Shown here piece after piece: positions 3,445 to 64,000 of a DNA stretch of 64,000 nucleotides. Position 1 is the first letter of the stretch. Each line of letters starts with the position of its first letter. The notes under the pieces were generated by a model. That model had not been told where the DNA came from, did not search any database, and worked only from the letters and a program-made list of their open reading frames with translations. A program made the position numbers and the translations under genes. This stretch comes from Adenophora triphylla var. japonica (taxonomy: Eukaryota > Streptophyta > Magnoliopsida > Asterales > Campanulaceae). The stretch covers positions 173,501-237,500 of the forward strand of contig JAFEMH010002502.1 of NCBI GenBank assembly GCA_022495995.1. The letters run 5' to 3'.

Positions 3445-3525
3445 GTGTCGCGTGACACAGGACGTGCCTGGCCAGATGTGTCGGGTGACACAGGATCTAA
3501 CCAGTCACCATGTATCGCATGACAC
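3445..3525. repeat. B motif triplet, 14-bp palindrome-like, 33-34 bp spacing
   Basis: Three copies of GTGTCGCGTGACAC or close variants start at 3445, 3478 and 3512. The arms GTGTC and GACAC are inverted around four central bases. The other LTR has the same triplet at 57030, 57063 and 57097 with identical spacing. Confidence 0.75.
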
Positions 3526-4168: not shown

Positions 4169-4222
4169 GTGTCGCACGACTTTCTGTAACCATTTTCCAA
4201 GCCTCGATTTGTCGCGTGACAC
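4169..4222. promoter_or_regulatory. B motif pair upstream of TATA
   Basis: GTGTCGCACGAC at 4169 and TGTCGCGTGACAC from 4210 lie 20 to 75 bp upstream of the TATA box on the minus strand. The same two variants are paired at 27431/27474 and at 56372/56339. Confidence 0.6.
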
Positions 4223-5215: not shown

Positions 5216-5741
5216 TGGTGGCTTGCTGGTGCTTTGCCGAGTGCAGGACGGTCTTTGCTGACGGTTGGCTTTTGGGGTCTTGAGCTTTGCTTGGTAGGAC
5301 GGGGTTTTTGCTTGCTAGGGAGCGGGCTCTTGCTGGTGCTTTGGCGGCGAGGCCACTGATCTTGGTGCGCATTACTGGGGAGACTAAAATAGATACGGAT
5401 TTTTTTGTCTCGGTTTTGGATGAGGGCCAGTCTTCGAGGGTTGATGAGGCTCAGTTGATCATTGTACCCTGTGGGGGAAACTGCAAAGCATGCCTCAGGG
5501 GTTAAAGTGCAAAATATCAGATCACAGGGGTGGTTTTTGGAAAATCTGGCCAATGAGTCACGTTGTGTCGCACGACTACATAAAGCTCATGGACAGATCC
5601 TTATAACGCTGAACAGTCACCATTTTGAAAACATATTTCAGAGGGAGACGAGCGGTTTTGATAGGGGAGACCATCTATTCGAATGAATTCAAGGGAAATC
5701 CAGTGAATCAAAGGTGTTGATTTAGTTTTTAGCTTGCAACT

Positions 5742-7432: not shown

Positions 7433-8388
7433 TGAAATAGCCCGGATCCGAGAGGCAGCGCGCTCACGCCCTGGCATCTGGCATTTCGCCCGCCTTGCGG
7501 CGTTTGTTTCGTTGGTGGAGGTGTCTCGCTGTGTTTTGCTTTGTAGAGTCTCCACGCCGTTTTTATTATTAAGCCCAAAACATTGAAAAAGGGCATCAAT
7601 TTAAAAATAATAATAAACTGTTTTTTGTGTGATGAGATTTGAGTTCGGAGGTCAGATGACTCCTCGGGAAGAGAATATTAGAATCTTAGAGCTCACCCGA
7701 GTCGCCTCGTAAAAACGAGTCTTTCGGATACCCCTAATATTCTTTAACTGTTGTGTGTGTGTGTGTGTGCTTTTTAAAAATGCATGCTGTATCGGATGTC
7801 TACATAGTACACTATGTATTGAAATGTATTGAAATAGTGTAGGAAGGAAGCCTTACCAATGTTGGTTCATGTCTGTCTTCCGCTGGGGAATAGTGTTTGA
7901 GGATGGAATAGTGCTCCGGGACGGACCGGGATTGCTTCGGGAGGGGCCAGTTGTCTGCGGACAGAGTTTCGACGTGAGTTGAGATTGTAGGCTGCGTTCG
8001 GGCAGAGGTTCGGCGTGCGTTGGGATGGCAGGAGTCACTCGGGCAGAGTTTCGGCGTGCGTTGGGATGGCAGGAGTCACTCGGGCAGAGTTTCGGCGTGC
8101 GTTCAAGCTACCGGTTTGACTCGGAAAGAGCCGGGACACCTTGGAAAGACCAGGCAAGGCCTCGGAGTACCACGAGGGGCCTCAGAGTACCTCGAGAGTG
8201 CCTCGGGGCAGCGCGGGAGCGTCGCGGGAGTGCTCGGGGAGGCTTCGGAGCACCACGAGGAAGCTCGAAAGGCCTCAAAAGGATCCGAAAGGGGCCGGGA
8301 TTGCCTCGAGAGGACTTAGAGGGGTGCCAGAAGGCTAGGGGAAGAAGAGAGAAGAGGGAGGTGTGAATGAAATGGGAGGGGGAGCCCT

Positions 8389-8397
8389 CTATTTATA
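8389..8397 (-). promoter_or_regulatory. TATA box of D 3' LTR
   Basis: The minus strand reads CTATAAATAGAGGG, close to the plant consensus. A palindrome copy sits just upstream (sense) at 8419-8432. Confidence 0.75.
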
Positions 8398-8525
8398 GTG
8401 GTAGATTTCGTGCAAAGAGGTCCGTACGGACCTCCTAGGTTATCCAGAATTTTAGTTTTCCTCGATTTGAGGGAATATGTGATAATTGTGAATATTCTGG
8501 AATGATGGTGTCCCCTGTGCAAAGA

Positions 8526-8570
8526 GGTCCGTACGGACCATCTTGGCATGCAAAGAGGTCCGTATGGACC
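8526..8570. promoter_or_regulatory. D palindrome pair in 3' LTR U3
   Basis: GGTCCGTACGGACC at 8526-8539 and GGTCCGTATGGACC at 8557-8570 are 31 bp apart start to start. Each follows the context CAAAGA. Single copies flank the pair at 8419-8432 and 8657-8670. Confidence 0.85.
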
Positions 8571-8855
8571 AACCATGCATGAGGGTAATGATTTTCTCCG
8601 GGATTTGAGGGAATATTGTGGACTTTAAGGGGATTCAGTAATTATTGCAACAAAGAGGTCCATACGGACCTTATTTGCTTCTCCAATTTCCTGAAAATTC
8701 CCAAAAGGTCCTTTTGTCCCTTTTTATCCCAGGAAGGCTCCTCCCTTGGTTTGGTTGAGGGTTTTTGAGTACTAGAGGTCTTCGAGACTGTGTTTGTGAG
8801 TCTGCGGTGTTTCCCATGTGCTCGAAAGAGGGTGATCCAGATTGGGGTACTTACA

Positions 8856-9427
8856 GAAGCCCCTCAACGACATCACTTACGAAGGAAGTGGGGTCGTTGA
8901 TAAGATAAGGGTCCTAATCTGGATCGCGTGCTGGGAGAGGAAGTGGCCATGGAGGTCGGGGTGAGGATGTGGCGGTGTCCTATTGTGTGACCGTTTAGGT
9001 CAGTTGGCTGGACCCTGTGATAGGATTCCTACGTATCCCTGGCGGGAATCAAGCCTGATCGTAGTTCGGCTGTGGGGTGAGTGTTTGTGGTGCACGAGGA
9101 TGGAAAGGGTCCTCTGACTGAAACTTTGTGCATGGACGTGGTGGTGTCCTGTGGGTGACCGCATAGGTCGATGGTGAGGACGTTGCGGCGTCCTGTGTGA
9201 CCGTATAGGTCGATAGCTGGACCCTGTGATAGGATTCCTACGTATCCCTGGCGGGAATCAAGCCTGGTCGTAGTTCAGATGTGGTGAATTTGTGAGTGTA
9301 TGTGGGCGTGGTGGTGCCCTGAAGTATCGTGTGATCGCCGAAGTCAGTGGTAAGGACAGGGTGGTGTCCTAAGATGTGGTGACCGCCGAGGTCAATTGTG
9401 ATGGAAACTTTATGATTTTCCTAATCG
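8856..9427. other. D 3' untranslated region with two conserved boxes
   Basis: Next to the polypurine tract this non-coding stretch resembles the same part of B (a CTCAACGACATCACTT-like start). It holds two copies of the ATTCCTACGTATCCCT...TCGTAGTTC inverted-repeat box (9022-9069 and 9231-9277). They are separated by GGTG(T)CCT...GTGACCG(C/T) repeats that continue to about 9400. No gene is supported. Confidence 0.65.
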
Positions 9428-9778
9428 GGTGGTTTAAGGCCTTCCGGGCCGGATATAGTGATTGGGGATGTTTATACGGTCTTCCGGACCGAGTGATTTA
9501 AAGCCTTCCGGGCTGGAGATAGTGATTTGGGAGGTTTATACGGTCTTCCGGACCGAGTGGTTTAAAGCCTTCCGGGCTGGAGCTAGTGATGGGGGAGGTT
9601 TATACGGTCTTCCGAACCGAGTGGTTTAAAGCCTTTCGGGCTGGAGATAGTGATGGGGGAGGTTTATACGGTCTTCCGGACCGAGTGGTTTAAAGCCTTC
9701 CGGGCTGGAGATAGTGATTTGGGAGGTTTATACGGTCTTCCGGACTGAGTGATTTAAAGCCTTCCGGACTGGAGGTAG
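9428..9778. repeat. 64-bp tandem array in D
   Basis: TTTATACGGTCTTCCG recurs at 9471, 9535, 9599, 9663 and 9727, a strict 64-bp period with about 5.5 units. Each unit contains CTTCCGGGC and TCTTCCGGACC blocks that are partly inverted. Confidence 0.9.
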
Positions 9779-10340
9779 TATGAGGACTTGAATCGTCTTC
9801 TGGTTGCGGTTTGCCATGCGTGAGGACTTGAATCGTCTTCTGACTGTGGTTGTGTCACGTATGAAGACTTGAGTCGTCTTCTGTCTGCGGTTGTGTCATG
9901 TATGAAGACTTGAGTCATCTTCTGACTGTTGTTGTGCCATGCGTGAGGACTTGAATCGTCTTCTGGCTGCGGTTGTGTCACGTATGAAGACTTAAGTCGT
10001 CTTCTGACTGCGGTTGTGTCATGTATGAAGACTTGAGTCATTTTCTGACTGTGGTTGTGCCATGCGTGAGGACTTGAATCGTCTTCTGGCTGTGGTTGTG
10101 TCATGTATGAAGACTTGAGTCGTCTTCTGACTGCGGTTTGCCATGCGTGAGGACTTGAATCGTCTTCTGGCTGTGGTTTGCTATGCGTGAGGACTTGAAT
10201 CATCTTCTGGCTGCGGTTGTGTCACGTATGAAGACTTGAGTCGTCTTCTGACTGTGGTTGTGCCATGCGTGAGGACTTGAATCGTCTTCTGGCTGCGGTT
10301 TGCCATGCGTAAGGACTTGAATCGTCTTCTGGCTGTGGGT
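9779..10340. repeat. 40-41-bp tandem array in D
   Basis: About fourteen units contain TGA(A/G)GACTTGA(A/G)TCGTCTTCTG, starting at 9781, 9821, 9862, 9903 and 9944 and onward. The unit has alternating GAGGACTTGAATC and GAAGACTTGAGTC versions. GAAGAC and GTCTTC are inverted inside the unit. A minus-strand frame stays open only because the unit length keeps it so. Confidence 0.9.
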
Positions 10341-10600
10341 TTTGGTTCAGGAGTATGAACCTAGTGTTTGAGACTTAGTTCAGGAGTATGAACTTAAGTT
10401 GGCGTTTGAGACTTAGTTCAGGAGTATGAACTTAAGTTGGAGCTTGGTTCAGGAGTATGAACCTGGCGTTTGAGACTTAGTTCAGGAGTATGAACTTAAG
10501 TTGGAGCTTGGTTCAGGAGTATGAACCTGGCGTTTGAGAGTTAGTTCAGGAGTATGAACTTAAGTTGGAGCTTGGTTCAGGAGTATGAACCTGGCGAGGC
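10341..10600. repeat. Tandem array of GTTCAGGAGTATGAAC hairpins in D
   Basis: About eight copies of GTTCAGGAGTATGAAC have arms GTTCA and TGAAC around a six-base centre. They alternate with GAGACTTA and AAGTTGGAGCTTG spacers. Non-coding. Confidence 0.85.
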
Positions 10601-11298
10601 CTTTTATGAGGCGTGATTGCCTTGTGCTTGATTTCGAGAGGCGTGATTGCCTTGTGCTTTGTCTGCTGGGGAGAAGGTTGGACTTACGATGACTGCCGGT
10701 GTTCGTCTGTTGGGGATCATCGTGGCCTTGTAGGGGCCTTTTCTGCTGAGAGGGTGACGTCGGGCTTACTTTGATGGCCGGTGCTTGCGTTGTCGATGAG
10801 CGTTTTGTGCCTTGGGATTTGTACTTGGAGGTGCTGGCTCCTTTTGCACTTATTTTGCCGTTGAGTGGGCGAAGTCCGGGCTTGCATTGACGGCCGGTGC
10901 TGGGGATATGTAGTCTTGTATGACTTCCCTTTTGACTTGCTGGGGAAGGAGCTCGGGCTTACTTTGATGGCCGGTGCTTGAGTTGCCATTGGAGTGGGCG
11001 AAATCCGGGCTTACACTGATGGTCGGTGCTTGAATTGCCATTGAGTGAGCGAAGTCCGGGCTTACATTGACGGCCGGTTCTTGAATTGCCATTGAGTGGG
11101 CTAAGTCCGGGCTTACATTGACGGCCGGTGGTTGAATTGCCGTTGAGTGGGCGAAGTCCGGGCTTACATTGACGGCCGGTGGTTGAATTGCCATTGGTTA
11201 AGGACCAAATTGCACTGAATTTGCTGAAATAGGCCTTAGGACAGCCAGGGGCAAAGATTATAAGGGCAAGAAAGTAATTTGGCCCTCCCTTGCAAGAA
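10601..11298. repeat. About 54-bp tandem array and PMD upstream region in D
   Basis: From about 10850 to 11195 there are about six units of TTGCCATTGAGTGGGCGAAG, then TCCGGGCTTACATTGACGG, then CCGGTG. Diverged CCGGTG-containing units extend back to about 10690. The last 100 bp lead into the PMD upstream region and palindrome pair. Confidence 0.75.
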
Positions 11299-11343
11299 GG
11301 TCCGTACGGACCAACCTGGGATGCAAAGAGGTCCGTACGGACC
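11299..11343. promoter_or_regulatory. D palindrome pair upstream of the PMD gene
   Basis: Two perfect GGTCCGTACGGACC copies start at 11299 and 11330, exactly 31 bp apart, with the same GCAAAGA-type context as in the LTR. The pair ends about 160 nt before the PMD start codon (11505). A TATA-like TTAAAAA lies between, near 11380. Confidence 0.8.
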
Positions 11344-11504
11344 AGGTTGGTTTTTTACAGTTCCCAGATTTTGACTGGGTTAAAAACCCGAGGCCCCCTT
11401 CACTTCTTCTTCTTTAGTTCGTGCATCCGAGAGAGAGAGAGAGAGAAGGAGAAAACCTCCATTTTTACACCAAAATCTTCCATTTTTCGCTTGAATTGCT
11501 CGCA

Positions 11505-14500
11505 ATGGCGGAAGGATCTCGGAGGGGTCGTTGACAACACAGTCAAGAAGTGATCGAGCAACGTATGGAGCTCCAAAGAAATTGGATCTCCTTTGTTCCA
11601 TCTTCGAAGAACCCGGATGTATTATATCCGAATCCGGAGGTGCACAATCGTCACTCTAGGAACGTCGGGGAGGTAAGAAATCCATTTTGTCTTGATTCCC
11701 TGCTTGAATTTTTGAATGCTAGAACTAGGTTTTAGTTTTTCGCATTTTGGGGCTTTTGTTATTTGCCATGCTTTTTTGTGAAATTCTTGATGAATTGTTG
11801 AAATTGAGCATGTAAATATTGTGGGTATGTGAATTTTGTGCAGAAATGTGTAGATTAGCTCTTATTTGTGAAAATAAAGTGCCTCTCTAATGAATTGCAT
11901 GCTTTGGTGTTTTGTACATTATGCTTTTTATGTATGTACAATGTGGGGAAAAATTGTCATGTAGGGACAAATTTTGTAGAAAAAGGAAAAAAATGTGACA
12001 TGTGCCGTGTTTTGTGACGGGTTTTGTCTGAAAGTATGTGCCGTGTAGGGACGGACTTTTCTTTTGAAAATGTGTTATGCAGTGTGTGCCGTGTTCTTGG
12101 GTGACAGACTCTGTGGGGAAAGTATGTGCAATATGTGCCGTGTTTTGTGACGGGTTATTTTGAAAGTGTGTCGTGTAGGGCTTAATCCCTCTTTTGAGAA
12201 AATTTGTGTGCCGTGTTTTTGTGACGGACTTCGTGGAAAAATTATGTATAATGCATGTCATGTTTTGAGTTGCATGTAAAAATTATGTGCAATATGTGCC
12301 GTGTTTTGTGACGGGTTGCATGTAAAAATTATGTATAATGCATGTCATGTTTTGAGTTGCATGTAAAAATTATGTGCAATATGTGCCGTGTTTTGTGACG
12401 GGTTGCATGTAAAAATTATGTGCAATATGTGCCGTGTTTTGTGACGGGATATATGTGCTTTGCCGTGTTGGGACGGTCTTTTGTGCTTTGATTTTCTTTT
12501 GGTATTTTGCATTAAGTACTGTGACTGACGTACCTTTGCTGTGTTTACCTGCAGGATGAGGGGCTCTTGGCTGGGAAAGCCAAGAAGATGAAGACTCGGG
12601 GATCGCTCGAGGCTGTTGTTGAGTTGTGGCAGCGGATGCCGGACATTTCTGTGGATGGCAGGCCGAGCCCCAGGAGGCTGGTCTATGCTTCTGGCCTAGG
12701 CGTGTTCGTGGAGAACTTGGCCGGGGTTTCTGACACGAGGAAGAACAAGAGCGTCTTCCTTGGCCTTTCTGAGTACTGGTGGGATACCACCCACACCTTC
12801 CATCTGAGCTGGGGAGAGGTGACGGTGACGCCTACGGACTTTGCTGCTATCACTGGGCTTTCCTTCAAAGGAGGGCCAGTGCGGTGGCGAGATATGATTG
12901 CCGAGGATGTGCTGACTGAGCTGCTGGGCTTTGCGCCTGTTCCTCGTAGGGGTCTTGGCATGTTGTATAGTGATGTTGAGATGAGGATCATGGCCAGTAT
13001 TGGGGCCTATGTTTGGGGTACCGGCCAGGTGACGGTGGAGCAGCTGGCGCGCTCCTTCCTGTGGTTTGCGCTTTCCGAGACTTTGTTCTCGAACCACTCG
13101 ACTACGGCTCCTTTTGCTCTGCTGGAGAGCTTGATTGATTTGGAGAGAGTTTGTGATATCTCTTGGGGCGAGGCGGGCTTGGCCGAGCTCTACTTCTCCT
13201 TGGACCGGTTTAGCCGGGGTGTGGCCAGTTCCTTGGCTTGTTTTGATTTTGCTTTGGAGGTATGAGTTCATTGCTGTTTTTGATGTAGCAACTTGTTGTT
13301 TCTCCGTTTTCTTTTGCACTGAGCCTTTTTCTGCTTTTGTCACAGGTGTGGTTCTATGAGATCTTTCAGTGCTTCCCGTGGGATAGAGATCCTGGGGCCG
13401 TAGCAGCGTATCCTGCTATGTTAGGCTGGGCATGCCCGGCGAGGAGGAGGAGGACCAGCAGGGGTAAGCTCACGATTTCCTACGGGGAGGTGCAGGAGCA
13501 TTTGGAGAGAGATAGCCCGGAGAGGTTTGTTCTGTATCCTTGGGCTCGATATGAGGATGATGATTTCGAGGGGGCTCCCCTGGTGACGGTGCAGCGGAAG
13601 ATGCTGCGGGGCCTGACTTGCGACGTCATGTATTTGGGAGAGCGGGTCTTCTGGCAGCATGGCCCGGGTATGCTTCCCTTGGCTCCGAGGGACCCTCCTT
13701 TTGGGATGTTGGATTCCCGGGATATGGATGTGTTGGATTTTGAGAGGTATCTTGGCGGCGTGGGTGCCGAGGAGTTTGTTTTGTATCGAGAGGAGTATGG
13801 GGCCTTTGTGAGGAGGAAGTTGAGGACGCCACAGGTGTTGGCGAGGGAGAGGGAGGCTGGTCCGCAGGGTCCCCCAGAGGTTTCGGTGCCTGGGCCGGAC
13901 TTTACGTATGTTCGTGGGGATTCCTCGAGGAGGAGGGTGTCTGTACCTGTCCCTGAGCAGGCTCCTGCTGCCTACCGAGTGGATCCTGATAGACCGGTGA
14001 GTGTGCTTACTCTTTTCCATCTTGGCATCTTTTCTGTATTTTTCTCTTTTTGTTGTTGAGTATGACTGTATTGCTGAGCGTTTCTTTGGCTGCTTGCTTG
14101 TGCAGGTCCCGGGGAGGGCTTTTGACATGCTGACCCGCCGTTATGTGGCGATGCGGTCTTTCGCGAAGAAGATGGCGTCGAAGATGTCTTGCCGGTCTTC
14201 GCGACGTGTGCCGGCGTACACGCCGATGCCTTCGAGGCATTCTGTAGATGTTCCTCCACCGAGAGCCGAGCCGGAGCCACAGCAGTATGGACCTTCGCGG
14301 GGGCGGCATAGAATGGATGCCGGACATCTTCGGGAGCTCCGAGGCCGCAGACCCTTTACCAGCTTCTTTCCTCCAGCAGGATGCACAGGTGAGGGTTCGT
14401 CGAGCCTTCCTTCTTCGATCCTTTCGTCGGATTTGATCCTTCGATTACTTTGAGTACCAGCCTCCGGAGGGGGCTCGGTACTCTGATGACGAGGATATGA

Positions 14501-14577
14501 CTGGCGACTTCACCGGGATGCCCGACTTCTCGCTTGATGATCTTGGGGAGGATGATGATGCTGAAGAGTCGGACTAG
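11505..14577 (+). pseudogene. Element D antisense PMD gene (4 exons)
   Basis: This is a plant mobile domain gene antisense to the element. Exon 1 is 11505-11672, exon 2 is 12555-13259, exon 3 is 13346-13996 and exon 4 runs from 14106 to the stop at 14577. All three introns are GT-AG and phase 0, giving about 665 codons. Signatures are YWWDTTHTFHLSWGE, FAAITGLSF, DISWGEAGLAELYF, VWFYEIF and MYLGERVFWQHGPG, then a basic stretch and an acidic tail (GEDDDAEESD). Defects are few: TGA at 11532 (a CpG-type change from CGA), a frameshift near 14290 and TGA at 14434. Exons 2 and 3 are fully open. Because the gene opposes the element transcript, its introns would not be spliced out during retrotransposition. 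The role is unknown; host relatives (MAIN/MAIL1) are nuclear proteins linked to silencing. Confidence 0.85.
11673..12554 (+). other. Intron 1 of D PMD gene, with tandem repeats
   Basis: GTAAGA donor after 11672 and TTACCTGCAG acceptor ending at 12554. From about 11980 to 12450 it holds repeats of TGTGCCGTGTTTTGTGACGG joined by GCATGTAAAAATTATGTG, with units of about 46 bp at the 3' end. B's intron 1 ends with the same acceptor context (GTGTTTACCTGCAG) but lacks this array. Confidence 0.75.
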
Positions 14578-14916
14578 GGTTTATTTGCTTTCCCTCTTTC
14601 CATATCTTCTCTTTTTTTTTTTGTTTAGCAACAGACATTTATGGGTACCTGTAATAAAACACTTGTATTTGCATGGCAAAAGTATTTCATTTTAAGATGT
14701 AATGTCGTTTTTGTGATTCCCGGGAATTGTCCTAGGAATGGTTGCTATTATTTTTTTTATTTTTGTGCATGCCACGTGAGCTAAGAGTGCGTTTGTGGGT
14801 AGTGTATGTTTGCCGGCAATGGCTTTGGCCAGTGTTTGGGCAGTTTGGAGCAAGGTCCTGCTGAGAACAGTGGTTGTTGTACTATTTGCTGAGAAAGTGG
14901 GGCCAAGATGCAATAA
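14578..14916. other. Intergenic region between the two D antisense genes
   Basis: This is the PMD 3' end: T-rich run, AATAAAAC near 14655 as a possible polyadenylation signal, then a low-complexity stretch with no gene. It leads into the palindrome pair upstream of the DUF7745-like gene. Confidence 0.5.
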
Positions 14917-14961
14917 GGTCCGTACGGACAGACCTATGTTGCAAAGAGGTCCGTACGGACC
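14917..14961. promoter_or_regulatory. D palindrome pair upstream of the DUF7745-like gene
   Basis: GGTCCGTACGGACA starts at 14917 and GGTCCGTACGGACC at 14948, again 31 bp apart. The pair ends about 118 nt before the ATG at 15080. An AAATAAATG sequence near 14984 could serve as TATA. Confidence 0.8.
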
Positions 14962-15079
14962 AACCTTGCTTTTGGGAAGGAAATAAATGCTTTCCCGTGT
15001 CTGGTCTTTCCCCCATTCCCCATTTGCAGCCATTTTCGAGCTTTCTTCCCCATTTTCTCTAGGAACCTCCATTTTTGCC

Positions 15080-16603
15080 ATGGATTCTTCGTACGTTCCC
15101 AGAATTTTGCCGAGGCTTTCGCAGGAGAGGCAAGCACACTTCCTTGAGCAGCTGAAAATGTGGATGCGACGCCGTATGAGGCATCAGAGGCGGGCTTTCG
15201 AGGTAAGGTTTCGTCTTTGCTCGATTTGGTCTTTTAAGGAGTTGGTTCCTGATTGGGAGTTATTGCGGGCTGCCGCGAAGTTCTGGGATGTTAGGAGGCA
15301 TGTGTATTGCTTTTCCTACAATGAAATGGTGCCCACTTTCGAGGATTTTCGGGCTTTGATTGGAGGACCGGAGGTGGAGGCCATCTCGCTTCCTTTGATT
15401 GGTGGTGCTGCTGTGAGCGTGAAGCTTGCAGGCTTTCTTCGTACTTCGTTGGAAGAAGTGCAGGGCATGATCCTTGATTCGGGTCATATTGACATTTCTG
15501 AGCTGCCGGAGCGGTTTATGGTTGATGATGAGAGTGATGTCTCTTGGGACGCATTTTCCTTGTGCGTGATTGCGACACTTTTTATGGTCAGCTCCCTTGG
15601 CATTTGCGATGGCGCTTTGCTAGATGTGGTTGGGCACTGCAGAGCTGGAGAGGATATTGTCCCGTTGGTGCTGGGGGAGACTCTTCATGGTATTGACCGT
15701 CTGGCGACTGGGGATCGGTTCATGAGAGGGGGAAGCCCCGCTTTGCTCACCTTGTGGCTGCGAGAGAGACTTCAGGCCATGCCCGAGGCTCCGATGTCAT
15801 TTAGCCCGTGGTCATTTGCTCAGCGACCTCTTGTGTTGGATATGGATCAGTCCGCCTGGGAGAGATGGATGGCACGACTTGGTACGCATCAGATCCGTTG
15901 GTGGGTTCCTCACTGGGGGATTGAGACTAGGAGGGTCTTTCAGGAAGGGTCCTATGTCGTCAGAGTTCCAGGTTTGTCTTGGTCCTCCTTTTATATTTCG
16001 TCGCTTGTTTCCCGGCAGTTTGGGATGAGGCAGGAGCCTTTGTTAGGCTGGGATGACCTTGCTACTATGGAGATAGCTCCTCTTTGTATGGCAGCTCCAG
16101 GTGCTTTCTTGTATTTTCTGAGGGTATGGAAGTATTCCGCTTTCCCTCCTGTGGTGCTCCTTAGACGTCGGGAGAGTGTCGTATTGACGACTCGCACACG
16201 GCCCGGTATGAGCGGCGTGTTGGGCGATCCCAAGTGGCTTTGGAGAGCGAGGCATGTAGCAATTGCAGGACCCGGTTGCCGTAGTAGCTATTGCCTTAGG
16301 AGTGCCGAAGCACAGTCCGACCCTCAGGATGTTACGGGAGACACTTTATTTGACTACGAGACCAGAGTTGACCGACTGACGGGGAGAGGTCCTCTTTTAC
16401 AGACTCGCAGGGAGGAGATCTGAGCCGAAGCACGGGCGAATGAAGCCTTGAGAGCTGCTGGATTGTTTGACTCTACGGGGAGGACCCCTGATCTCGGACT
16501 GAGAGACGCAGAGTTGGTTCGCGTGGAGCGAAAGAAGACTCGCCGGGGACGAGGGAAGAAAGGGAAGAATGGCGAGGGGACAAGCGCAGATGGCGCGGAA
16601 TGA
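15080..16603 (+). pseudogene. DUF7745-like gene, antisense in D
   Basis: The frame starts with MDSSYVPRILPRL at 15080, is open for 447 codons to TGA at 16421, then stays open in the same frame to TGA at 16603 (about 507 codons in all). The 16421 stop looks like a CGA-to-TGA change. Signatures are AAAKFWDVRRHVYCFSYNE and VPTFEDFRALIG near residues 55-90, the GETLHGIDRL and LLTLWLRERLQ helices near 200-240, and WWVPHW near 275. These agree with my memory of the plant DUF7745 family, whose function is unknown and which is often found beside transposons. The C-terminus is basic (RKKTRRGRGKKGKNG). No intron is needed. It lies 3' of the PMD gene in the same orientation. Confidence 0.65.
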
Positions 16604-17381
16604 CCTTCTAGGTATCCATTCATTGCATTGTAAACACATAATTTGTTAAAGTATTAAGCTGTCTTTTAGCATGTTGTGAACTTGAGAGTAGACCGTGCTT
16701 GAACTCATCAAGAAATGTTATAACCGTTAGTGATTTGCGATTTACTTTTAAAGCTTTGTCGAGACGCAAGATCTCTTGTTCGCTTTTGTGTATTTTGTGA
16801 ACCTTGGCGGTGTCCATCTTTGGACTTTTCTGTTGCATTTGCGAACTGAAGCGGCCTGGGCCTTGACGGCAATCCCCTTTGCTTAGGCTTTGTGCTTGGC
16901 TGAGAGGTTGAATGATCCCCTGACAAGTTGTTTTGACGGTCATTTCCGTAGCTTCCTTGCCCTTTGTTGGCGTCGGGCTCTTGACCTCAATTTCGTGGCT
17001 TCTGCTTGAGCCTCTTTTTTTATTATTTTTTTTGTGAGCCTTTGCTCGAGCTCTTTTTTTTTTTTTTGAAGCGCGTGAGGGCGAAGACAAGCCCCTGGCT
17101 TGGAAGCAGACATGGGTCAGTCGTTTGATGCTGAGTGACCTCCGGATGTCCTTTGATGTTGCCGCTGTCGTTTGACTTGGTCAAGGTGACGTTGGGGGCG
17201 TGCTCTTGAAAAGTGCATAGCTTGATGGAGGTCTTGATTGACATTCAAACTTTTGACTTTTTTTTTTGTGTATTTTTAGACCGGACCAATTAAGGTTGCC
17301 TACGTTCCCCCGGACTAGAGGGCTCAGGTCTGCGTAGTTCGACACTACCTGAAGTGCCAAGAGATGCACCGTTGTTCTTCT
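16604..17381. other. Region between DUF7745-like gene and D pol
   Basis: The two genes converge here. It holds T-rich runs (near 17015-17066) and no recognised gene; a lysine-rich minus-strand frame at 16620-17090 has no family I know. The post-pol inverted-repeat box lies at 17299-17345: TTGCCTACGTTC, then GCTCAGGTC, then GCGTAGTTCGACAC. Confidence 0.55.
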
Positions 17382-18700
17382 TCAGGCGAAGTATCTGCGA
17401 AGTTTGCTTCCGTTGACTGGATTCATGAAGGGATTGCCGTCTAGGTCTGTCAGTTTCATGGCACCTCCGGAGAAGATCTTTTGAACCACGAAAGGGCCGA
17501 TCCATGTGGGTTCCCATTTTCCCAGTGGGTTGGTTCGAGTGGGAGGCTTTTCTTTGAGTACCAGATCGCCTTCCCTGATGTCTCGGGACTTGACTTTCTT
17601 GTCGAAAGCTCTAGCCATCCTGTTTTGATAGGCTCGGACGTGTTCCATGGCCTTTAGTCGTCGCTCGTCTAGCAGAGCCAATTCATCATGTCGGCTTCGG
17701 AGCCATTCAACTTCGTTGACGTCATTTTCCAGCAGCACTCGGAGTGAGGGAATTTCCAGTTCAATGGGAAGGACTGCTTCCATCCCGTATGTCAGGGCGA
17801 ATGGGGTTTCTCCCGTGGTCGTTTCCGACCGATGTTCGGTAGCCCCAAAGTGCAAGGTGCAGCTTCTCGGGCCAATCTCATCCTCGGGTGGTTATTTTTC
17901 GGATGATCCGTTCGAGGGTCTTGTTTGCTGCTTCCACGGCGCCATTTGTTTGTGGCCGGTAGGGAGAAGATTTGTGGCGTGTGATCTTGAATTCGGCCGG
18001 CGGTGCATCGAATTCCCCTCGAAGTGTGAACCGTTGTCTGATACGACCTCATTTGGGATGCCGTATCGGCAGATGATGTTTTCCTTGAGGAAATGCGCGA
18101 CCTTCTTGGAGGTGAGTACCTTGTAGGACTTGGCTTCGACCCATTTGGTGAAGTAGTCGATGGCTACTAAGATGAACTCGTGACTTCTTTGCTGGCGGAG
18201 CGATTTTCCCGATGACGTCTATTCCCCAAGTGGCAAATGGCCAGGGTGTAGTCATGCAGTAGAGATCGTGGGGAGGTAGATGATTGAGGTTGGAGAACCG
18301 TTGACACTTGTCGCAGCTTCGGACAAAGTGGATGCAATCTGCCTCCATAGAGATCCAGTAGTAGCCCATCCTGAGAATGATTTGCATCAGGGCTCTGGCA
18401 TTCATGTGGGGTGGCGTTCATGTGGGGACCGCAAGCCCCATTGTGGACTTCGTTCATGAGCTTGTTTGCCTCTTCCTGGTTGATGCAGCGTAGGAGTGGT
18501 CCATGGTAGCGTTTCTTGTATAGCATGTCCCCGAGGATGACGAAGTGAGAGGCGAGGCATTTTAGGGCCATGATGCTCTTGGTTTTGACCCCTTCTGTGT
18601 GTGGGCCTTCCTTGTTCATGAAGGTGATTTTCCCGTTCTTGAGGTATTCGAAGATCTGGTTGTACCATGGCTCATTGACGGGCTTGGGTTCTGGTTCGAT
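17382..18700 (-). pseudogene. Element D integrase
   Basis: On the minus strand the zinc-binding domain (NEVHNGACGPH, then SCDKCQRFSN) is followed by the core motif FATWGIDVIGKI, conserved spacer sequence, HFGATEHRSETT, GETPFALTYGMEAVLP, and the C-terminal GDLVLKE and WIGPFVVQKI, ending LRRYFA at 17382. Frameshifts separate these blocks near 18405 (next to a small direct repeat CATGTGGGG) and in the core near 18050-17860. It would insert element cDNA into the genome. Not functional as it stands. Confidence 0.8.
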
Positions 18701-19746
18701 TTTACAACAGTAGGCAGGAATTTCCTTTCGTCCGACTTTGAAGGGTTTGATTGCTTTTCCTTCAGGGATTTCCACAAGGGAAGCCAAGGTGGCTAAGGCA
18801 TCTGCAAACCTGTTTCGGTCTCTTGGCAAGTAGTGGAAGGTGACCTCTTCGAATTGTGTGATGAGGTCCTCCATGCGAGCATGGTATTTTTGCAAGCACA
18901 GGTCTATGGTTTTCCATTTGTTGGAAACTTGGTTGATGATCGTGGGCGAGTCCCCATAAACTTCGAGTTTCGGACATTCCTCTCGAGTGCGGCTTGTAGT
19001 CCCGGCGGCCACGAGGCTTCATATTCGGCGGCATTGTTGGTTACCTCGAAATTGAGCTTTATGGCGATTGGGGTGTGCTCGTCCTTGGGATCGACCAAGA
19101 GCATACCGATGCCGTTTCCTTTTTTGTTGGCTGCTCCATCGAAGAACAGTTGCCATAGATTTTCGCCTTCAAGTGCAAAGATTCCCTCATCTGGGAATTG
19201 TGGTTCAGGGCCTCGAGCCTCGTCGGTTGGGAAATCAGCCAGTTGTTCAGCCATTGCCCGTCCCTTGATTGACTTTTGGTTAACGTACTTGATGTCAAAT
19301 TCCGCTAGGAAGAAAGACCATTTGGCGAGCCTCATTGACAGAGATGGTTTGTCGAAGAGGTATTTGACTGGGTCCATTTTGGAAACCAAGTGTACCGTGT
19401 GCGACTGCATGTAGTGCCGTAATTTTCCGACAACCCATACCAGAGCTGCGCAGGTTTTCTCGAGGGCTGAGTAATTGAGTTCGCTGCCTTGAAACTTTTG
19501 ACTGACGAAGTAGATGGCGCTTTCGACTCGTGACTCCTTCTTTTCTTGACAAAGCATGGCTCCAACTGGGGTGTCGGTCACAGTTAGGTATAGCAACAGT
19601 GGCTTCTCCTCGTGGGGAGGACAGAGAATCGGAGGACTCACAAGGTATGCCTTTATTTCCTCAAAGGCATCTTGGCATTCTGAGTTCCATTCGATGTCGG
19701 CGTTCTTCTTCATCAGTTTGAAGATTAGCTCGCACATGGAGGTCAA
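18701..19746 (-). pseudogene. Element D RNase H and archaeal-type RNase H
   Basis: The RT-linked RNase H spans residues about 25-155 of the minus-strand frame (AFEEIKAYLVSPPIL, LLYLTVTDTPVGAML, NYSALEKTCAALVW, LAKWSFFLAEFDIKY). A second RNase H of archaeal type follows (LFFDGAANKKGNGIGMLL, NNAAEYEA, VYGDSPTIINQV, RFADALATLASL), the hallmark of the Tat lineage. There is a frameshift after NNAAEYEA near 19000. These enzymes remove the RNA strand during reverse transcription. Confidence 0.8.
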
Positions 19747-19770
19747 TTGGTTGACGAAACGACTGATATA

Positions 19771-20734
19771 CTACAGGCGGCCCATGAAGCTTTTCACCTC
19801 TGTCTGAGTTTGCGGTGGTCTCATTTCGATGATGGCCTTGATCTTTTGAGGATCAACCTCGATGCCTCTCTCGGTGACCATGTATCCCAAGACCTTGCCT
19901 CGGATAACCCCAAATGTGTATTTGGCAGGGTTTAGCCTCATTGAGTGTTTTCGGAGGCGATTGAAGAATTTTCTCGTGTACGAGGTGTTGTCCATCCGAT
20001 CCCTTTGAGTGGATGATCATGTCATTGACGTACACTTCGATCTCTTTGTGGATCATGTCGTGGAAGAGAGGGCGGTTCTTTGCCCGTTGGTAGGTAGCCC
20101 CAGGCGTTCTTTAGTCCGAACGGCATTGCGTGTAGCAAGAGGTTCCCAGGGGTTGTGAAAAGCTGTCTTTTCTTGATCTTCTTCGGCCATCTTGATTTGA
20201 TTGTAGCCGGCAAACCCGTCCACGAAGGACTTGACTTCGAAATTGGCTGTAGTGTCTACCAACATGTCGATGTTGGGTAGTGGAAAATCGTCCTTGGGAC
20301 TTGCTTTGTTGAGATCTCGAAAGTCCACGCAGCAACACACTTTTCCATTGGCCTTGGTGACCGTAACGATATTGGAGAGCCATGTGGGGTACTCGATCAC
20401 CCTGATGAAGCCGACGCGGAGCATTTTTTCGATCTCTTCTTTGACTTGTAAAGACCATTCTGGCTTGATTCGGCGTAGCTTTTGCTTGATGGGCTTAGCC
20501 TTGGGATTGAGAATCCGGTGTTCTACAATGTTTGGATCTAATCCGAGGCATGTCTTGGTAAGACCAAGCGAACACGTCCACGAATTCTTTGAGCGGTGCG
20601 GTCAATGCGTCTTGCTCTGTGCCGGTGAAGAAACTTCCGATTTGCATCTCTTTTGACTCTTCGGCGGTTCCCAAATTCACTTTGGTTAAAACCTCCTCGC
20701 GGCTTGGGCCCGGTTTTCTCTCGTTTGACAACAT
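19771..20734 (-). pseudogene. Element D reverse transcriptase (YVND in place of YVDD)
   Basis: Blocks on the minus strand are EFVDVFAWSYQDMP, VCCCVDFRDLNKASPKDDFPL, FVDGFAGYNQIKMAEEDQEK, YVNDMIIHSK and NRLRKHSMRLNPAKYTFGV. The polymerase active-site box reads YVND: the codon for the first Asp has become AAT, as expected from decay of a CpG in GTCGAT. That residue is needed for metal binding in reverse transcriptases. Two frameshifts and a displaced segment (20053-20213) also break the frame. Confidence 0.8.
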
Positions 20735-21584
20735 GCTTAAAGATGTGCTTAATGTATTGTTCGTTTAATGTATGCTTCTTTATCAAGTGAATCGTTATTA
20801 ACTTGTTTGTGTGTTAGTTAATTTATCGGTTGTTAAAGATGCAATGAGAGGATACTCGGAAAGATCGAAGCATTCATTAAGAGCATACGGGAATACATTA
20901 TTGGCAATGAGTTCGTAATCTTCGGCGTGAGGCCATCGGATGACTCGAGAGACTCAAATTCAAAGATAATGGATTCGGGATGAGTTTTGACACTGGACTC
21001 TAGGACTCGAGAGGTCGAGACCAAGTTGTTCGATCATGTCCTTTTCTTTGGCGGTGGAGTCCGGAGAAGGTGGCCCGGTTATTGAGTGGCAATGAGCTTG
21101 ATAGGAGGCGGAGTTTGAAAGGCTTTGTGTCACCGTTCCCAATCATTGCTATCACGAGTTATCGAAACAAAATCGATCGGGTCGGCATCTCGATTTCTTC
21201 ATTGAAGAAGCGAGGTGGAGCGGTGGCTCATTCCAAGCATCACTGCGGAGTCTTTTGCTTTTGCCTTGGGCATTACTAGCTCGAATGCGGACTCGTCCCG
21301 CTTGTTTAAGGCGGAGTGTTGACAGAGAGTTTTTCGAGTTCTTACGCGAAGAGGGGTTTTCCCGAACCAAAATTCGTTGTGAATAGTGGTGGTCGTGGGT
21401 CCTGGCAGAGGCGGTGTATCGAGAAATGCTCTTCGGACGGGATTTGGCTTGAGGCCTCTGAATCTTGCCAGGTTCCGCTGGAGCTTGTCCATGGTTGTCG
21501 GCCAGCTTTGTTTGGCGCTGATCAGCTCTGTTCCCTTTCTGGATCTTCTTCCAAGTTGTGAGGCCTTCTTTGTGAAGTACTTGG
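20735..21584 (-). other. D linker between protease and RT
   Basis: Tat-lineage pol has a long poorly conserved linker here. Minus-strand frames (for example PLRVRTRKTLCQH and ESIIFEFESLE) have no domain that I recognise and are broken by stops. The stretch near 20735-20830 is AT-rich. Confidence 0.4.
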
Positions 21585-22310
21585 TCATGTCGAAGGAGGA
21601 CGAAGATCGGAGATTGCGTGCAAGCCTCTTTTGCTATCTGCGGAGCATTTCCGTGCAGCTCGCTTGTCCTCCGCAATGTGTTCGGGAGTAGGAAAGTATC
21701 CCAAGCCATGGAGGGTATTCTGCTCTTTGATATGGATGATTTGTTGGGTACCTTGATGGCGTTTTCCCAAACCGAGCCCCGGGATGTAGTTCATGTGCTT
21801 CATCATTTTCATCGGGGGAGGGATCTTGTCCCAAATCAAAGGCAGGTCTATGTGGCATACCTGGGCCTTTGGGCTTTCGATGGTGAACCCTGTTAGCATC
21901 ATGCCATCATCGTCGTGTTTGATCTCTAAGACCGGGACGCCGTTTGTGTCGGTCCTTTCGGTGACTACGCTATCACCATAGATGATGGTTAGATCTGTTC
22001 CTTGGACGAACTTTACACACTGATGGAGATTGGATGCCACCCCATTGATCTGGTGTAGCCAAGGGCGTCCCAAAATGGCAGTGAATGTGATCGGGATGTC
22101 GATGACTTGGAAATCCGTCGGGACCATTTGTTTTCCGAACCACAGGTTCAAGGTGGCTATTCCCAAGACTGGGCGGGATGTTGAGTCGTATGCCTTGATT
22201 GCCTGAGTTGAGGGCTTTAGATCAGTCGCTTTGATCCCTAGCAGATCCATCATTTTGGATGGCAGGACATTCATGGATGATCCTCCATCTACAAAACCCG
22301 AGGGAGGCGG
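21585..22310 (-). pseudogene. Element D aspartic protease
   Basis: The active-site motif VDGGSSMNVLP (near 22260-22300) is the usual Tat variant with DGG in place of DTG. ITFTAILGRPWLHQ follows in the second half of the fold. Downstream comes a G-patch-like stretch (PGLGLGKRHQG, LHGLGYFPT). A frameshift separates the motif from the preceding gag-side frame. It would process the polyprotein in the particle. Confidence 0.75.
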
Positions 22311-23581
22311 CGCTCGTCCAGTTGAACTGTTATGTAGAGAGGCTCATTGTGGTCAGCCCCAAATTTTGGAAGGTCGAGCTCTGTGAAAGTGATGATGTTG
22401 CTGTAATTAACGTTGCCAATCATCTGAACTGCTTCATCATTTGTCACCGTGATAGGAACCATGGTCTGGGCCAGGCTTTCCTCCAACTTGAGCTTGTGCG
22501 GGTAAGATGAAGTGAGTAAGGACCAGAGTGAGATGTTAGCTTGAGTGTGCTTGAGCTGTGTTAAGACAGGATCTTCAGCCTTTGGGTCCAAGGTTTCAGC
22601 CTCTTTGGCGTAGGGCCCCTTTTCAGTTTGTGGCTCAGGTATGGCTGGCCTTTTGTCTGCCCGTGGAGGATTCACTGGGATTTGACCGGAACGTGTCAGA
22701 ACGTTCACTTCTGGCCTTACTGTTTTGCTTGTCTCCCCTATTTCTGTAGTGGGAGGACCCTGATTGGCGTAGGGCCAGACTGCGTATTTCAATTCGTTCA
22801 CTGTCATAGCTTTTGTGGAGACGTCCACAGTGGCTTTGAGGTCTTCCCAAGACAGGGGCTGGGGTATCTAGACTTTTGGGCCTTCTGTGGCGGTGCGGAG
22901 CTCGCCCAGCTGATCATGGAGCGAGACGTTGCCATGGCCTTGTGCGAGAGCTAGGTCGGGAGACTTCTTTGGAGTAGATGACATAGTAGTCAAACTTTCT
23001 GAGGGTTCTCCAAGGGTTCCGGCGTGGGATCACCGGATTCATACCTCTTTTTCGGTTTTTGTTGAGAAGATGGCTTCTTCTTTCTTCGAGGACGGCCCTC
23101 GTTCATTTCATCCTGGAATTCCATTTCCGCACAAGCACTGTCCTTGCAGATGTCCCACCGAGATGTGTCCGTTGTTCGGCGGTGGTACCGGACCTCGGGA
23201 GGGCCGAATGGGCGTGCTTTCGCCGGAGGGTCCTGTGGCCTTATGTCATAACCGCATGGTTCGTACGAGGGCAACGGGTTGATTTACGGGAGACAATGAG
23301 AGGCGTTAGAAGGCTGCGGGAGCAGTCATGACTTTGGAAGCCCCGGGTAGTTGGGTGGCTAATGTCCCGAAGTGATGCATAGCGCCTTCGATCCAAGCTT
23401 GTTGTTCACCTTGGCATTTCTCAATAGCCATGAGGACCTGCCAAACTTCTTCCAATGTTGGGAAATTTCTTGGGGGTAAGGTCCCATTCTCATCGTTGTT
23501 ATCCACACGACTTGGCCATGGGAATTGACGGTATCCTGGTGACGTAGCCGGGAAGAAAGTTGGACCTTGCGGCTTTGACAC
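22289..23581 (-). pseudogene. Element D gag-like region
   Basis: Three minus-strand blocks: 23581-23306 (MSKPQGPTFFPATSPGY..., with an LEEVWQVLMAIEK helix), 23274-22990 (basic, ending in a KKKPSSQQKPKKR stretch) and 22828-22289 (LTRSGQIPVNPP, VPITVTNDEAVQMIG, LYITVQLDERRLPRVL, leading into protease). I do not see the Retrotrans_gag capsid core or a zinc knuckle, so the capsid part appears lost or too diverged. Confidence 0.6.
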
Positions 23582-24836
23582 GGGGAGACGGGTTCACAGG
23601 TACTCTCGATCACTCTACGGTTAGCTGGAGGGGTGACGGGCAAGGTTTAGACACGGGAATGGCCTCACGGGATAAAAGGGGAAAGCTCACGTGGCATGCG
23701 GTTTCCGTTTCTTTTTTATTTTTATTTTTTTGTTGTTTTAATTTACTTAAAACATGTTTTCTCGTAGTCCTAGGTAGGTTGGAAAAGATTGCTCTTCTTT
23801 TTCGCAACTATGCTAGATCTGGGTCGATGGAGACCATCCGTGCGGCTATAAGCCCCTCGTTTTGCACACAGTATTTCGACATCCCGGGGTGGACAGCCCC
23901 GGGCAAGGGTCCTATAGGGCAAGCGGTTTCCACCGGCCTAAAAGAAAAATCGAGCCTAAGGACCGAGCCTGTCATGTTCGTTTTGATGCGTTAGCCATGC
24001 GAATAGTGAATCGAGCCGGCACCGAGTCAAGATCGGGTCAAGAGTTCGGCATGATCTCTCTTTACCTTGCTTGCGCAAGGGATCCAGTGACGTTAGGCGT
24101 TAGGTGGGTCATATTGTCATGGCCGACGTATCAAAGGCGTGATGACATGGTGTCATGTGAGCATGGATGTATATCCGGACGGAACATCGTCTGGGTGTAG
24201 CTTCGGAAATCAAGATCAGGTCAAGATTTTAGCATGACCTTTCATCGCTTTGCTTGCACAAGGGATCTTGAGTTCCGAGCCTTGACTCAGAAAATGGCCG
24301 GCATGGTATATGTATCCGAGTGTATGACACGGGAGGTAAAAACCAACCGAGTGCGGGACGGAGTGTGACTCAAGACTCAAACGTGCAGGGTTGACGCTTG
24401 GCTAGGATGGGATGTTTGGAATGATCCCGTGCGCATCCGAGAGGCCTAGGAAGACCAAACGGACTGCAACTGAGACCACTCCGGGTTAAGGGTTGTAGTG
24501 TGCAGTGTATCCGAGGCAGCAGTGCACATAGCGTGCGGTGTAACCGAGGCAGCAGTGTGCGTAGTGTGCGGTGTAACCGAGGCAGCAGTGCGAGTAGTGT
24601 GCGGTCTCTAAAATTCTTTTTCTGAGTAAAACAAAAGTTTTTTTTCGAAGAATTTTAAATGTATGCACAGATGTATATTGATGCATTTTTTTTTTAATTT
24701 TTTTTTTTGTAAAATAAAAAGTAAAGCACGTGCACACACACACAACAGTTAAAGAAGGGGGTAAAATGAAAGTTTGACCCTCATCATCGTTTTAAAAATC
24801 TTTTTCTTTGTTTAAAAAGATTTTAAAACAAAAAGA
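23582..24836. other. D 5' leader
   Basis: Non-coding DNA between the gag-like start and the primer-binding site, with no supported gene. Near 24490-24604 there are three 38-bp repeats carrying CCGAGGCAGCAGTG. T-rich and A-rich runs lie at 24640-24720, with a CA run near 24733. Confidence 0.6.
24497..24604. repeat. 38-bp tandem repeat in D leader
   Basis: Three units of TGCGGTGTAACCGAGGCAGC plus a variable GTGCG(A/T)AGT tail lie about 240 bp from the primer-binding site. Confidence 0.75.
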
Positions 24837-24853
24837 TCCCAGCGGAGTCGCCA
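24837..24853 (-). other. Primer-binding site of D (tRNA-Arg type)
   Basis: The plus strand reads TCCCAGCGGAGTCGCCA, the 3' end of a plant tRNA-Arg (with one C fewer than B's copy). The minus strand is therefore the primer-binding site, three bases from the 5' LTR. Confidence 0.85.
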
Positions 24854-25811
24854 ACTGAAATAGCCCGAATCCGAGAGGCAGCGCGCTCGCACCCCGGCAT
24901 CTGGCATTTCGCCCGCCTTGCGGCGTTTGTTTCGTTGGTGGAGGTGTCTCGCTGTGTTTTGCTTTGTAGAGTCGCCACGCCGTTTTTATTATTAAGCCCA
25001 AAACATTGAAAAAGGGCATCAATTTAAAAATAATAATAAACTGTTTTTTGTGTGATGAGACTTGAGTTCGGAGGTCAGATGACTCCTCGGGAAGAGAATA
25101 TTAGAATCTTAGAGCTCACCCGAGTCGCCTCGTAAAAACGAGTCTTTCGGATACCCCTAATATTCTTTAACTGTTGTGTGTGTGTGTGTGTGCTTTTTAA
25201 AAATGCATGCTGTATCGGATGTCTACATTGTACACTACGTATTGAAATGTATTGAAATAGTGTAGGAAGGAAGCCTTACCAATGTTGGTTCGTGTCTGTC
25301 TTCCGCTGGGGAATAGTGTTTGAGGATGGAATAGTGCTTCGGAACGGACTGGGATTGCTTCGGGAGGGGCCGGTTGTCTGCGGACAGAGTTTCGACGTGT
25401 GTTGAGATTGTAGGCTGCGTTCGGGCAGAGGTTCGGCGTGCGTTGGGATGGCAGGAGTCACTCGGGCAGAGTTTCGGCGTGCGTTGGGATGGCAGGAGTC
25501 ACTCGGGCAGAGTTTCGGCGTGCGTTCAAGCTACCGGTTTGACTCGGAAAGAGCCGGGACACCTTGGAAAGACCAGGCAAGGCCTCGGAGTACCACGAGG
25601 GGCCTCAGAGTACCTCGAGAGTGCCTCGGGGCAGCGCGGGAGCATCGCGGGAGCGCTCGGGGAGGCTTCGGAGTACCACGAGGGAGCTCGAAAGGCCTCG
25701 GAAGGATCCGAAAGGGGCCGGGATTGCCTCGAGAGGACTTAGAGGGGTGCCAGAAGGCTAGGGGAAGAAGAGAGAAGAGGGAGGTGTGAATGAAATGGGA
25801 GGGGGAGCCCT

Positions 25812-25820
25812 CTATTTATA
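25812..25820 (-). promoter_or_regulatory. TATA box of D 5' LTR
   Basis: CTATAAATAGAGGG on the minus strand. The nearest palindrome (25842-25855) lies about 21 bp upstream in the sense direction. Confidence 0.75.
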
Positions 25821-25948
25821 GTGGTAGATTTCGTGCAAAGAGGTCCGTACGGACCTCCTAGGTTATCCAGAATTTTAGTTTTCCCCGATTTGAGGGAATA
25901 TGTGATAATTGTGAATATTCTGGAATGATGGTGTCCCCTGTGCAAAGA

Positions 25949-25993
25949 GGTCCGTACGGACCATCTTGGTATGCAAAGAGGTCCGTACGGACC
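25949..25993. promoter_or_regulatory. D palindrome pair in 5' LTR U3
   Basis: Two perfect GGTCCGTACGGACC copies are 31 bp apart start to start, the same arrangement as at 8526, 11299 and 14917. Confidence 0.85.
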
Positions 25994-26288
25994 AACCAAG
26001 CATGAGGGTAATGATTTTCTTCGAGATTTGAGGGAATATTGTGGACTTTAAGGGGATTCAGTAATTATTGCAACAAAGAGGTCCGTACGGACCTTATTTG
26101 CTTCTCCAATTTCCTGAAAATTACCAAAAGGTCCTTTTGTCCCTTTTTATCCCAGGAAGGCTCCTCCCTTGGTTTGTTTGAGGGTTTTTGAGGGTTTTTG
26201 AGTACTAGAGGTCTTCGAGACTGTGTTTGTGAGTCTGCGGTGTTTCCCATGTGCTCGAAAGAGGGTGATCCAGATTGGGGTACTTACA

Positions 26289-26293
26289 AGGTG
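26289..26293. repeat. Target-site duplication AGGTG, right of D
   Basis: Partner of 7428-7432. The PMD reading frame continues in phase across the two copies once D is subtracted. Confidence 0.9.
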
Positions 26294-63483: not shown

Positions 63484-63486
63484 AAC

Positions 63487-64000
63487 TGATGATGCCAAAA
63501 TGTCGAATCAGCCCAAATCCAAGCGATCGGTATGCTCCGGCGATTGCTTAGCCTGAAAATAAGACAAAACACGTAAACTAAGTCGGGGCTTCACCGGCGA
63601 AGGCCCTCCGGCGTGAGAGTAAGTTCACGGTTTGTAGAGAGAGAAACTAATTTGACAGAGTTTCGGAATATAAAAGTAACGTACCAGAATATGGAAATTA
63701 TGGCTTGTATTTATAATGATGGATTGACATAATCCATGTTGAACTGGGACTGTAAAGAGATAAAATATAATCCTAGGAGGATTATATCTGTTAAGGAGTC
63801 CTTGTTTGACTTGAATTGATGTAGATGGGTACAATCCTGATTGGATTATAACTGCTTAATCCTTGTTTAAATTGGATTGCTAATACTGCTTGCCGGAAAG
63901 CCGAGGTGAATGAATTCCTTATCTCGTCACTTACAGGTAAGCCGAGGTGAATGAATTCCTTTCCTCGTAATATGAAGGTATGCCGATATGAAGATAAGGC
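63487..64000 (-). repeat. Element A 5' LTR, partial
   Basis: TGATGATGCCAAAATG matches the 3' LTR from 308 onward with few differences. It continues past the window end. Confidence 0.9.

Follow-up and report, generated by a model that had tools for sequence, protein, structure and literature searches.

VANDALs are DNA transposons. In the published accounts cited here, related VANDAL families differ in the short, family-specific motifs to which their VANC proteins bind, and the VANC21 motif, YAGTATTAY, is non-palindromic and forms tandem arrays in one orientation (PMC5735166, PMC10398659). Among long terminal repeat (LTR) retrotransposons, gypsy elements of the Retand/Grande type carry antisense open reading frames between pol and the 3' LTR (PMC11963269, PMC7264820); the Retand antisense proteins are predicted to bind DNA, a regulatory role has been proposed for them, and TRP28 (PF04195) is present in 97% of the published antisense clusters (PMC11963269). 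Gypsy elements are also reported to encode PMD proteins of the clades PMD-A1/A2, and the DOWN motif CATGCAGTTT in the MORC1 promoter has been linked to the function of MAIN/MAIL1 (PMC5418596, PMC7156037, PMC9899485). In the cited passages, the role of the antisense genes in plant gypsy elements and the function of PMD are called unknown (PMC7264820, PMC11963269, PMC5418596). Here, we analyzed a 64-kb stretch of the Adenophora triphylla var. japonica genome (contig JAFEMH010002502.1, positions 173,501 to 237,500; hereafter the window, with coordinates counted from its first letter) that harbors element D, a minus-strand LTR retrotransposon with two antisense genes on the plus strand, coding for PMD (PF10536) and DUF7745 (PF24924) proteins, between its pol and 3' LTR. 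A 14-bp palindrome stands in pairs in the LTRs of D and upstream of both antisense genes, and at the corresponding promoters of another lineage, family G, it is replaced by a different palindrome.

Element D resembles VANDALs in that a family-specific short motif, differing among related families, is concentrated in the noncoding regions of a mobile element. However, VANDAL motifs are recognized by a protein that the element itself encodes, whereas for D we predict binding from the sequence, and the motifs described here are palindromes arranged in pairs at the LTR and antisense promoters of LTR retrotransposons. The antisense frames between pol and the 3' LTR are shared with Retand/Grande-type elements, yet the surveyed Retand antisense proteins carry TRP28, which was absent from a Pfam scan of the three antisense pieces of D, where PMD and DUF7745 were found instead, and the cited description of Retand does not report binding sites (PMC11963269). 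PMD proteins are encoded by gypsy elements in the PMD-A1/A2 clades, as in D, but the DOWN motif is none of the palindromes found here, and its direct recognition by MAIN/MAIL1 is treated as hypothetical in the cited passages. The palindromes themselves are not described in the cited parts of the work on gypsy PMD proteins, Retand antisense proteins and VANC motifs. In the open-access literature searched, we found no paper on DUF7745, nothing on palindromic transcription-factor sites in the U3 of LTR retrotransposons, and nothing on retrotransposon self-transactivation of such a kind, while 'plant mobile domain' was absent among the matches listed for PMD DNA-binding assays.

Paired palindromes at the promoters of element D

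The palindrome GGTCCGTACGGACC, sought with up to 2 mismatches, was found at 12 sites in the window, every one of them within D, against a chance expectation of 0.07 on average and 1 at most in 100 shuffles. Each LTR carries four of these sites. In the first, site 1 (8419..8432) stands at a distance of 21 bp from the TATA box (minus-strand TATAAATA, 8390..8397, read from the sequence and among the best-conserved stretches of 20 aligned LTR pieces), sites 2 and 3 form a pair 31 bp apart farther up U3 (8526..8570), and a fourth U3 site follows at 8657..8670; the other LTR repeats this order with site 1 at 25842..25855, a pair 31 bp apart at 25949..25993, and site 4 at 26080..26093. Two further pairs precede the antisense genes on the plus strand: the one at 11299/11330 (11299..11343) ends 161 nt upstream of the PMD ATG at 11505, and the one at 14917/14948 (14917..14961) ends 118 nt upstream of the DUF7745 ATG at 15080. 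The sequence-only reading, from which this analysis started, had reported 12 copies in D, four pairs exactly 31 bp apart from start to start, promoter distances of 160 and 118 nt, and single copies about 21 bp from the TATA boxes; all of its coordinates were correct, and only the first distance shifted, by 1 nt. Furthermore, a blind scan, which sought near-palindromic 12-mers recurring at distances of 15-44 bp, returned 8 pairs in the window, compared with a mean of 0.1 (largest 1) in 10 Markov-1 simulations; four of them were the D pairs, two were sites of a second element, E2, and two were unrelated.

The same arrangement was seen in other copies of the family. These comparisons cover the window and 20 regions that were fetched because they bear the motif, so the conservation, CpG retention, and flank counts given below are biased upward; nor are the copies independent. 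Altogether, 36 clusters of sites (≤2 mismatches) comprised 20 typical LTR quartets with spacings of 105-107, 30-31, and 96-100 bp, one atypical quartet (L010), 12 pairs, and 3 singles. All four sites were present in 20 of the 20 aligned D-family LTRs, which have a mean pairwise identity of 85%, and were exact in 71 of 80 cases; site columns were 99.0% conserved as compared with 87.8% elsewhere in these LTR pieces, with the TATA region being similarly conserved, and CpGs were retained in 156 of 160 cells within sites versus 106 of 119 elsewhere. Pairs in PMD promoters were also found in L005, L007, L015, L016, L021, and L023, and the distance of the pair from the DUF7745 ATG was equal within 2 bp in five of six family copies, including D. 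Among the antisense promoters that could be aligned to D, site identity exceeded flank identity in 10 of 11 (DUF7745, 4 of 5; PMD, 6 of 6), the exception being L015, which has a single DUF7745 site only. One-base variants were noted in D at 8557 and 8657, corresponding to CG>TG and CG>CA, and at 14917 (last C>A). Since the latter recurs in the same place in four of five other D-family DUF7745 promoters, it looks inherited.

The full site of D exceeds the 14-bp core. GCAA stands outside the core, 93 times with 3 bp and 22 times with 4 bp in between, and 99 of the 106 sites (≤1 mismatch; window plus fetched loci) have it on one side or both, against an expectation of less than 3% per side. The sequence-only reading had described the flanks outside the pairs as differing; the flanks are not random. 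Two GCAA-extended sites placed end to end need 14 + 2 x 7 + 2 = 30 bp, which would be a simpler cause of the observed spacing than helical phase. The spacers of D-family LTR pairs (e.g. 8541-8556) often show CATGCAA beside the core, a partial likeness to the DOWN motif that is perhaps due to chance.

Genome-wide (2.48 Gb), exact copies of GGTCCGTACGGACC numbered 47,555, whereas the reversed control gave none, and 9,548 perfect pairs had 2-32 bp between their members, i.e., start-to-start distances of 16-46 bp were permitted. Among 50 unique pairs listed, the distance was 30 bp in 23, 31 bp in 23, 32 bp in 2, and 33 and 43 bp in one each. Altogether, 46 of these 50 pairs lie 30 or 31 bp apart, with 30 bp being as frequent as 31. 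No D site (≤2 mismatches) was present in four arbitrarily placed 10-kb regions, and in the samples examined we encountered neither family members devoid of pairs, nor random spacing, nor a motif equally common elsewhere.

The 3' LTR of D (7433..8855, minus strand) is a direct repeat of its 5' LTR (24856..26288, minus strand), with TG...CA ends, a 5-bp target duplication, AGGTG, and a divergence between the two of K = 0.021. The element contains a PBS-like sequence, GGCGACTCCGCTGGG, and its pol is reduced to broken pieces, in which minus-strand RNase H matches exceed the Pfam cut-off, whereas the RVT_1 match stays below it (21.6 vs 29.6 bits required). On the plus strand, the PMD-coding exon of the first antisense gene spans 12525..13265 (PF10536, E 1.2e-24) and continues at 13289-14059; the frame opening at ATG 11505, which was taken as the PMD start, ends in a stop after 9 codons in the D copy. 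The antisense DUF7745 gene occupies 15080..16423 (plus strand; PF24924, 37.2 bits with a cut-off of 26). When its protein was searched against a set of 5.8 billion proteins, none of the 7,997 candidates that were scored reached E ≤ 0.001; in the own genome it yielded 70,198 first-look candidates, the best 94 of which, when scored, were 88-100% identical and often had open frames of about 538 amino acids, so the D family looks large and recent. The longest in-frame DUF7745 pieces of the fetched copies were 94% (L020), 89% (L015), 95% and 76% (L013), 83% (L017), and 62% (L008) identical; lower values of 58-61% obtained for several copies were rejected, as the alignment had run across frameshifts. 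Between the 3' LTR and the PMD promoter lie tandem arrays at 9347-10341, 10362-10596, and 10657-11181, with units of about 64, 41, and 51 bp, resembling the tandem arrays reported for Retand elements (PMC11963269).

Replacement of the palindrome in family G and a third palindrome in E2

A search with the Pfam DUF7745 model, in which 118 matches were scored out of 15,523 candidates and 8 of the 118 were fetched, revealed family G, whose DUF7745 proteins score 71-84 bits versus 37 for D and are 33-36% identical to that of D. Its palindrome, TCTCGCRCGAGA, occurs in pairs 19-21 bp apart in the LTR, the PMD promoter, and the DUF7745 promoter. Each of the eight fetched promoters has two sites within 2 mismatches of TCTCGCGCGAGA, separated by 19 bp and located near positions -195 and -176 relative to the DUF7745 ATG, while D sites (≤3 mismatches) and E2-type sites (≤2) were absent from all eight. 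In 9.4 kb beside a G gene (L037), there are three occurrences of TCTCG-N(0-5)-CGAGA. Two of them, at 6681 and 6700, form a pair in the LTR U3 at some 150 bp from the TATA box; the third, at 7764, precedes a PMD gene (36% identical to the D PMD) and has a weaker partner 20 bp on. The blind scan alone saw a pair in six of the eight G promoters; the pairs that it missed in the other two (L029, L030) and in L037, where it found none, were recovered by the motif-informed search. Genome-wide, the G pair gave 2,696 forward and 2,651 reverse matches (a few symmetric pairs being counted on both strands), with 0/0 for the control. With 14-48 bp permitted, the spacing at 97 unique places listed was 19 bp in 79, 20 bp in 15, and 22, 33, or 38 bp in 3.

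A short G-like element (L038-L040, C12:684600-691966) has LTRs that are 99.7% identical over 746 bp and lie about 6.5 kb apart; both contain a pair with 19-bp spacing, situated some 150 bp away from a TATA box. Its interior (L039) bears another pair, 20 bp apart, to which neither a neighboring TATA match nor a gene could be assigned. This element could be a non-autonomous derivative depending on the regulator of its larger relatives. The genome-wide listing of G pairs suggests more elements with a similar layout.

The blind scan of the window also uncovered a different near-palindrome, TGTCGNNYGACA, in element E2. The 14-mer form GTGTCGCGTGACAC, with up to 3 mismatches, matched 10 places (19 matches when both strands are counted, 2.2 expected), and every one of these places belongs to E2; a looser and less clean scan (12-mer, ≤3 mismatches) marked 30 places in the window, of which 12 were the E2 sites described here and most others lay outside E2. 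The E2 LTRs contain triplets 33 and 34 bp apart (3445..3525 and, in the right LTR, 57030..57110) and two sites 40 bp apart adjoining the minus-strand TATA box of the left LTR (4170..4221); a pair 33 bp apart occupies the stretch beside the PBS-like sequence of the right LTR (56340..56384). On the plus strand, a single site with no partner seen (5566..5577) lies 176 nt before the E2 PMD ATG at 5742, and a pair 33 bp apart (27432..27476) is situated past the end of that gene. The E2 PMD pieces fall under the Pfam cut-off (33.2 of 34.9 and 15.9 bits), yet they are similar to the D PMD in tblastn. One of the four arbitrarily placed regions, L028, contained about 200 bp related to the E2 LTR with four pairs, whose spacings are 34, 33, 34, and 42 bp; among their sites is the perfect E2-type palindrome TGTCGTACGACA.

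In this one genome and these three lineages, we thus found three palindromes, all arranged in pairs and none seen in more than a single lineage, and in both D and G a single palindrome per lineage stands at three promoters of the element. Their outer half-sites, GTC...GAC, are alike in all three, and the gap between them amounts to 4 bp in E2, 6 bp in D, and 8 bp in G. Phasing of the pair on the faces of the helix, which the sequence-only reading had offered for the 31 bp, was rejected in view of the spacings of 19-20 bp in G, 30 or 31 bp in D, and 33-34 bp in E2; the G value corresponds to no whole number of turns, which leaves the argument unsupported as a general rule. It may be how long the full site is that sets the distance within a pair.

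The window as a whole is a nest of insertions. D is inserted within the E2 PMD gene (5742-7435 and 26290-27038) and flanked by AGGTG; this duplication, the position inside the gene, and LTR divergences of K = 0.021 for D versus 0.041 for E2 indicate that the D insertion is younger than E2. E2 was also entered, at 30296-54070, by another gypsy element present as two tandem copies about 12.5 kb apart, with a 1,426-aa open frame containing RT, RNase H, integrase, and protease; no palindrome pair was found in these copies by the blind scan. LTR-like direct repeats at 305-604 and 63484-63783, 63 kb apart, delimit the outermost element, whose minus-strand gag and RT pieces lie at about 57.9-62.6 kb. 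Outside the window, region L026 carried a near-palindrome of unrelated sequence, the copies of which are spaced by 49, 72, and 121 bp.

A candidate regulatory circuit and its alternatives

These observations led us to favor, as somewhat probable, the view that the palindromes are operators of an element-encoded dimeric protein which would regulate the LTR and antisense promoters, with each lineage having its own site. It is suggested by sites that are far above chance, located at promoters, better conserved than their surroundings, and narrowly spaced, by their replacement in G, and by the third palindrome of E2; the similarity of the outer half-sites, the low identity between the DUF7745 proteins of D and G, and the VANC and Retand precedents point the same way. 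A sequence-specific dimer produced by the antisense genes, with the PMD and DUF7745 proteins as candidates, singly or jointly, would act on the pairs that lie in the U3 of the LTR and ahead of each antisense gene, and one regulator would thereby control the genomic-RNA promoter as well as its own production. The likeliest effect would be activation or removal of local silencing, limited to copies with the private site, as with VANC for VANDAL. Each lineage would possess its own palindrome and spacing, the dimer having diverged in spacing and inner contacts. The sequence-only reading had likewise proposed a dimeric DNA-binding protein and its origin from the element; apart from the geometry of helical faces, the first proposal agrees with what was found, and the second gains support from the three-promoter layout of G with another palindrome and, partly, from E2. 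Within this framework, we tentatively put forward as a possibility a private circuit in which the PMD and/or DUF7745 protein binds the pairs and changes of the GTC/GAC gap (4, 6, 8 bp) create new specificities, which would then be installed at the promoters of the element, so that families sharing a genome would be regulated separately.

Several points weigh against the operator view: (i) E2 shows no DUF7745 match in the window, and its PMD gene has a single site before it and a pair after it, making its layout less complete; (ii) L007, with a PMD 48-54% identical to that of D, and L021, whose PMD pieces are 34-49% identical to D in broken frames, both keep the D palindrome, while E2, with a PMD in the same range as L021 (38-49%), has another one, hence the two copies with the lowest PMD identity to D, L021 and E2, bear on coevolution in opposite ways, and the motif cannot be foretold from PMD divergence alone; (iii) a single-sequence AlphaFold model of the DUF7745 protein had a mean pLDDT of 36 and no usable fold; and (iv) the CGTACG center is common to D and the perfect E2-type site and could be recognized by a host factor.

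The last point is the chief reason for considering that the elements exploit host transcription factors, e.g., SBP/SPL proteins for D and E2 and another factor for G. Host factors are commonly used by LTR retrotransposons, and SBP/SPL factors have a GTAC core, which is present here, CGTAC being found on both strands of the D palindrome and of the perfect E2-type one. However, the conserved unit of D, a symmetric 14-bp core with GCAA flanks, is longer than a GTAC core needs and its conservation is not limited to that short core; G has no GTAC center in an identical layout, and one palindrome per lineage serves several promoters of that lineage. We consider this explanation unlikely on balance.

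Still less probable, in our opinion, is hitch-hiking, i.e., that a module of 45-65 bp was copied by chance within the element and spread without selection on the sites. The 65-bp stretches around the D pairs are 77-83% alike, which indicates that a module was probably copied, and the family copies share ancestry, so that their counts are not independent. Yet flanks have diverged more than sites, D and G repeat the layout with different letters, and the copies are placed ahead of gene starts and TATA boxes. A role in the element RNA, such as dimerisation or packaging of genomic RNA, is very improbable: retroviral RNAs dimerise through palindromes and one of the E2 pairs falls in the leader region, but in D and G the sites keep to TATA boxes and to the starts of genes on either strand, not to a leader, and an Rfam scan of D gave nothing at gathering thresholds, which is weak evidence.

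For the view that the palindromes are operators of an element-encoded regulator, they supply defined DNA targets in the form of probes of about 45 bp, with D and G having sites at all three kinds of promoter and serving as mutual specificity controls, and E2 providing a third, less complete set. If confirmed, such regulation would represent a VANC-like self-recognition in retrotransposons and might hint at the targets of the domesticated MAIN/MAIL1 proteins.

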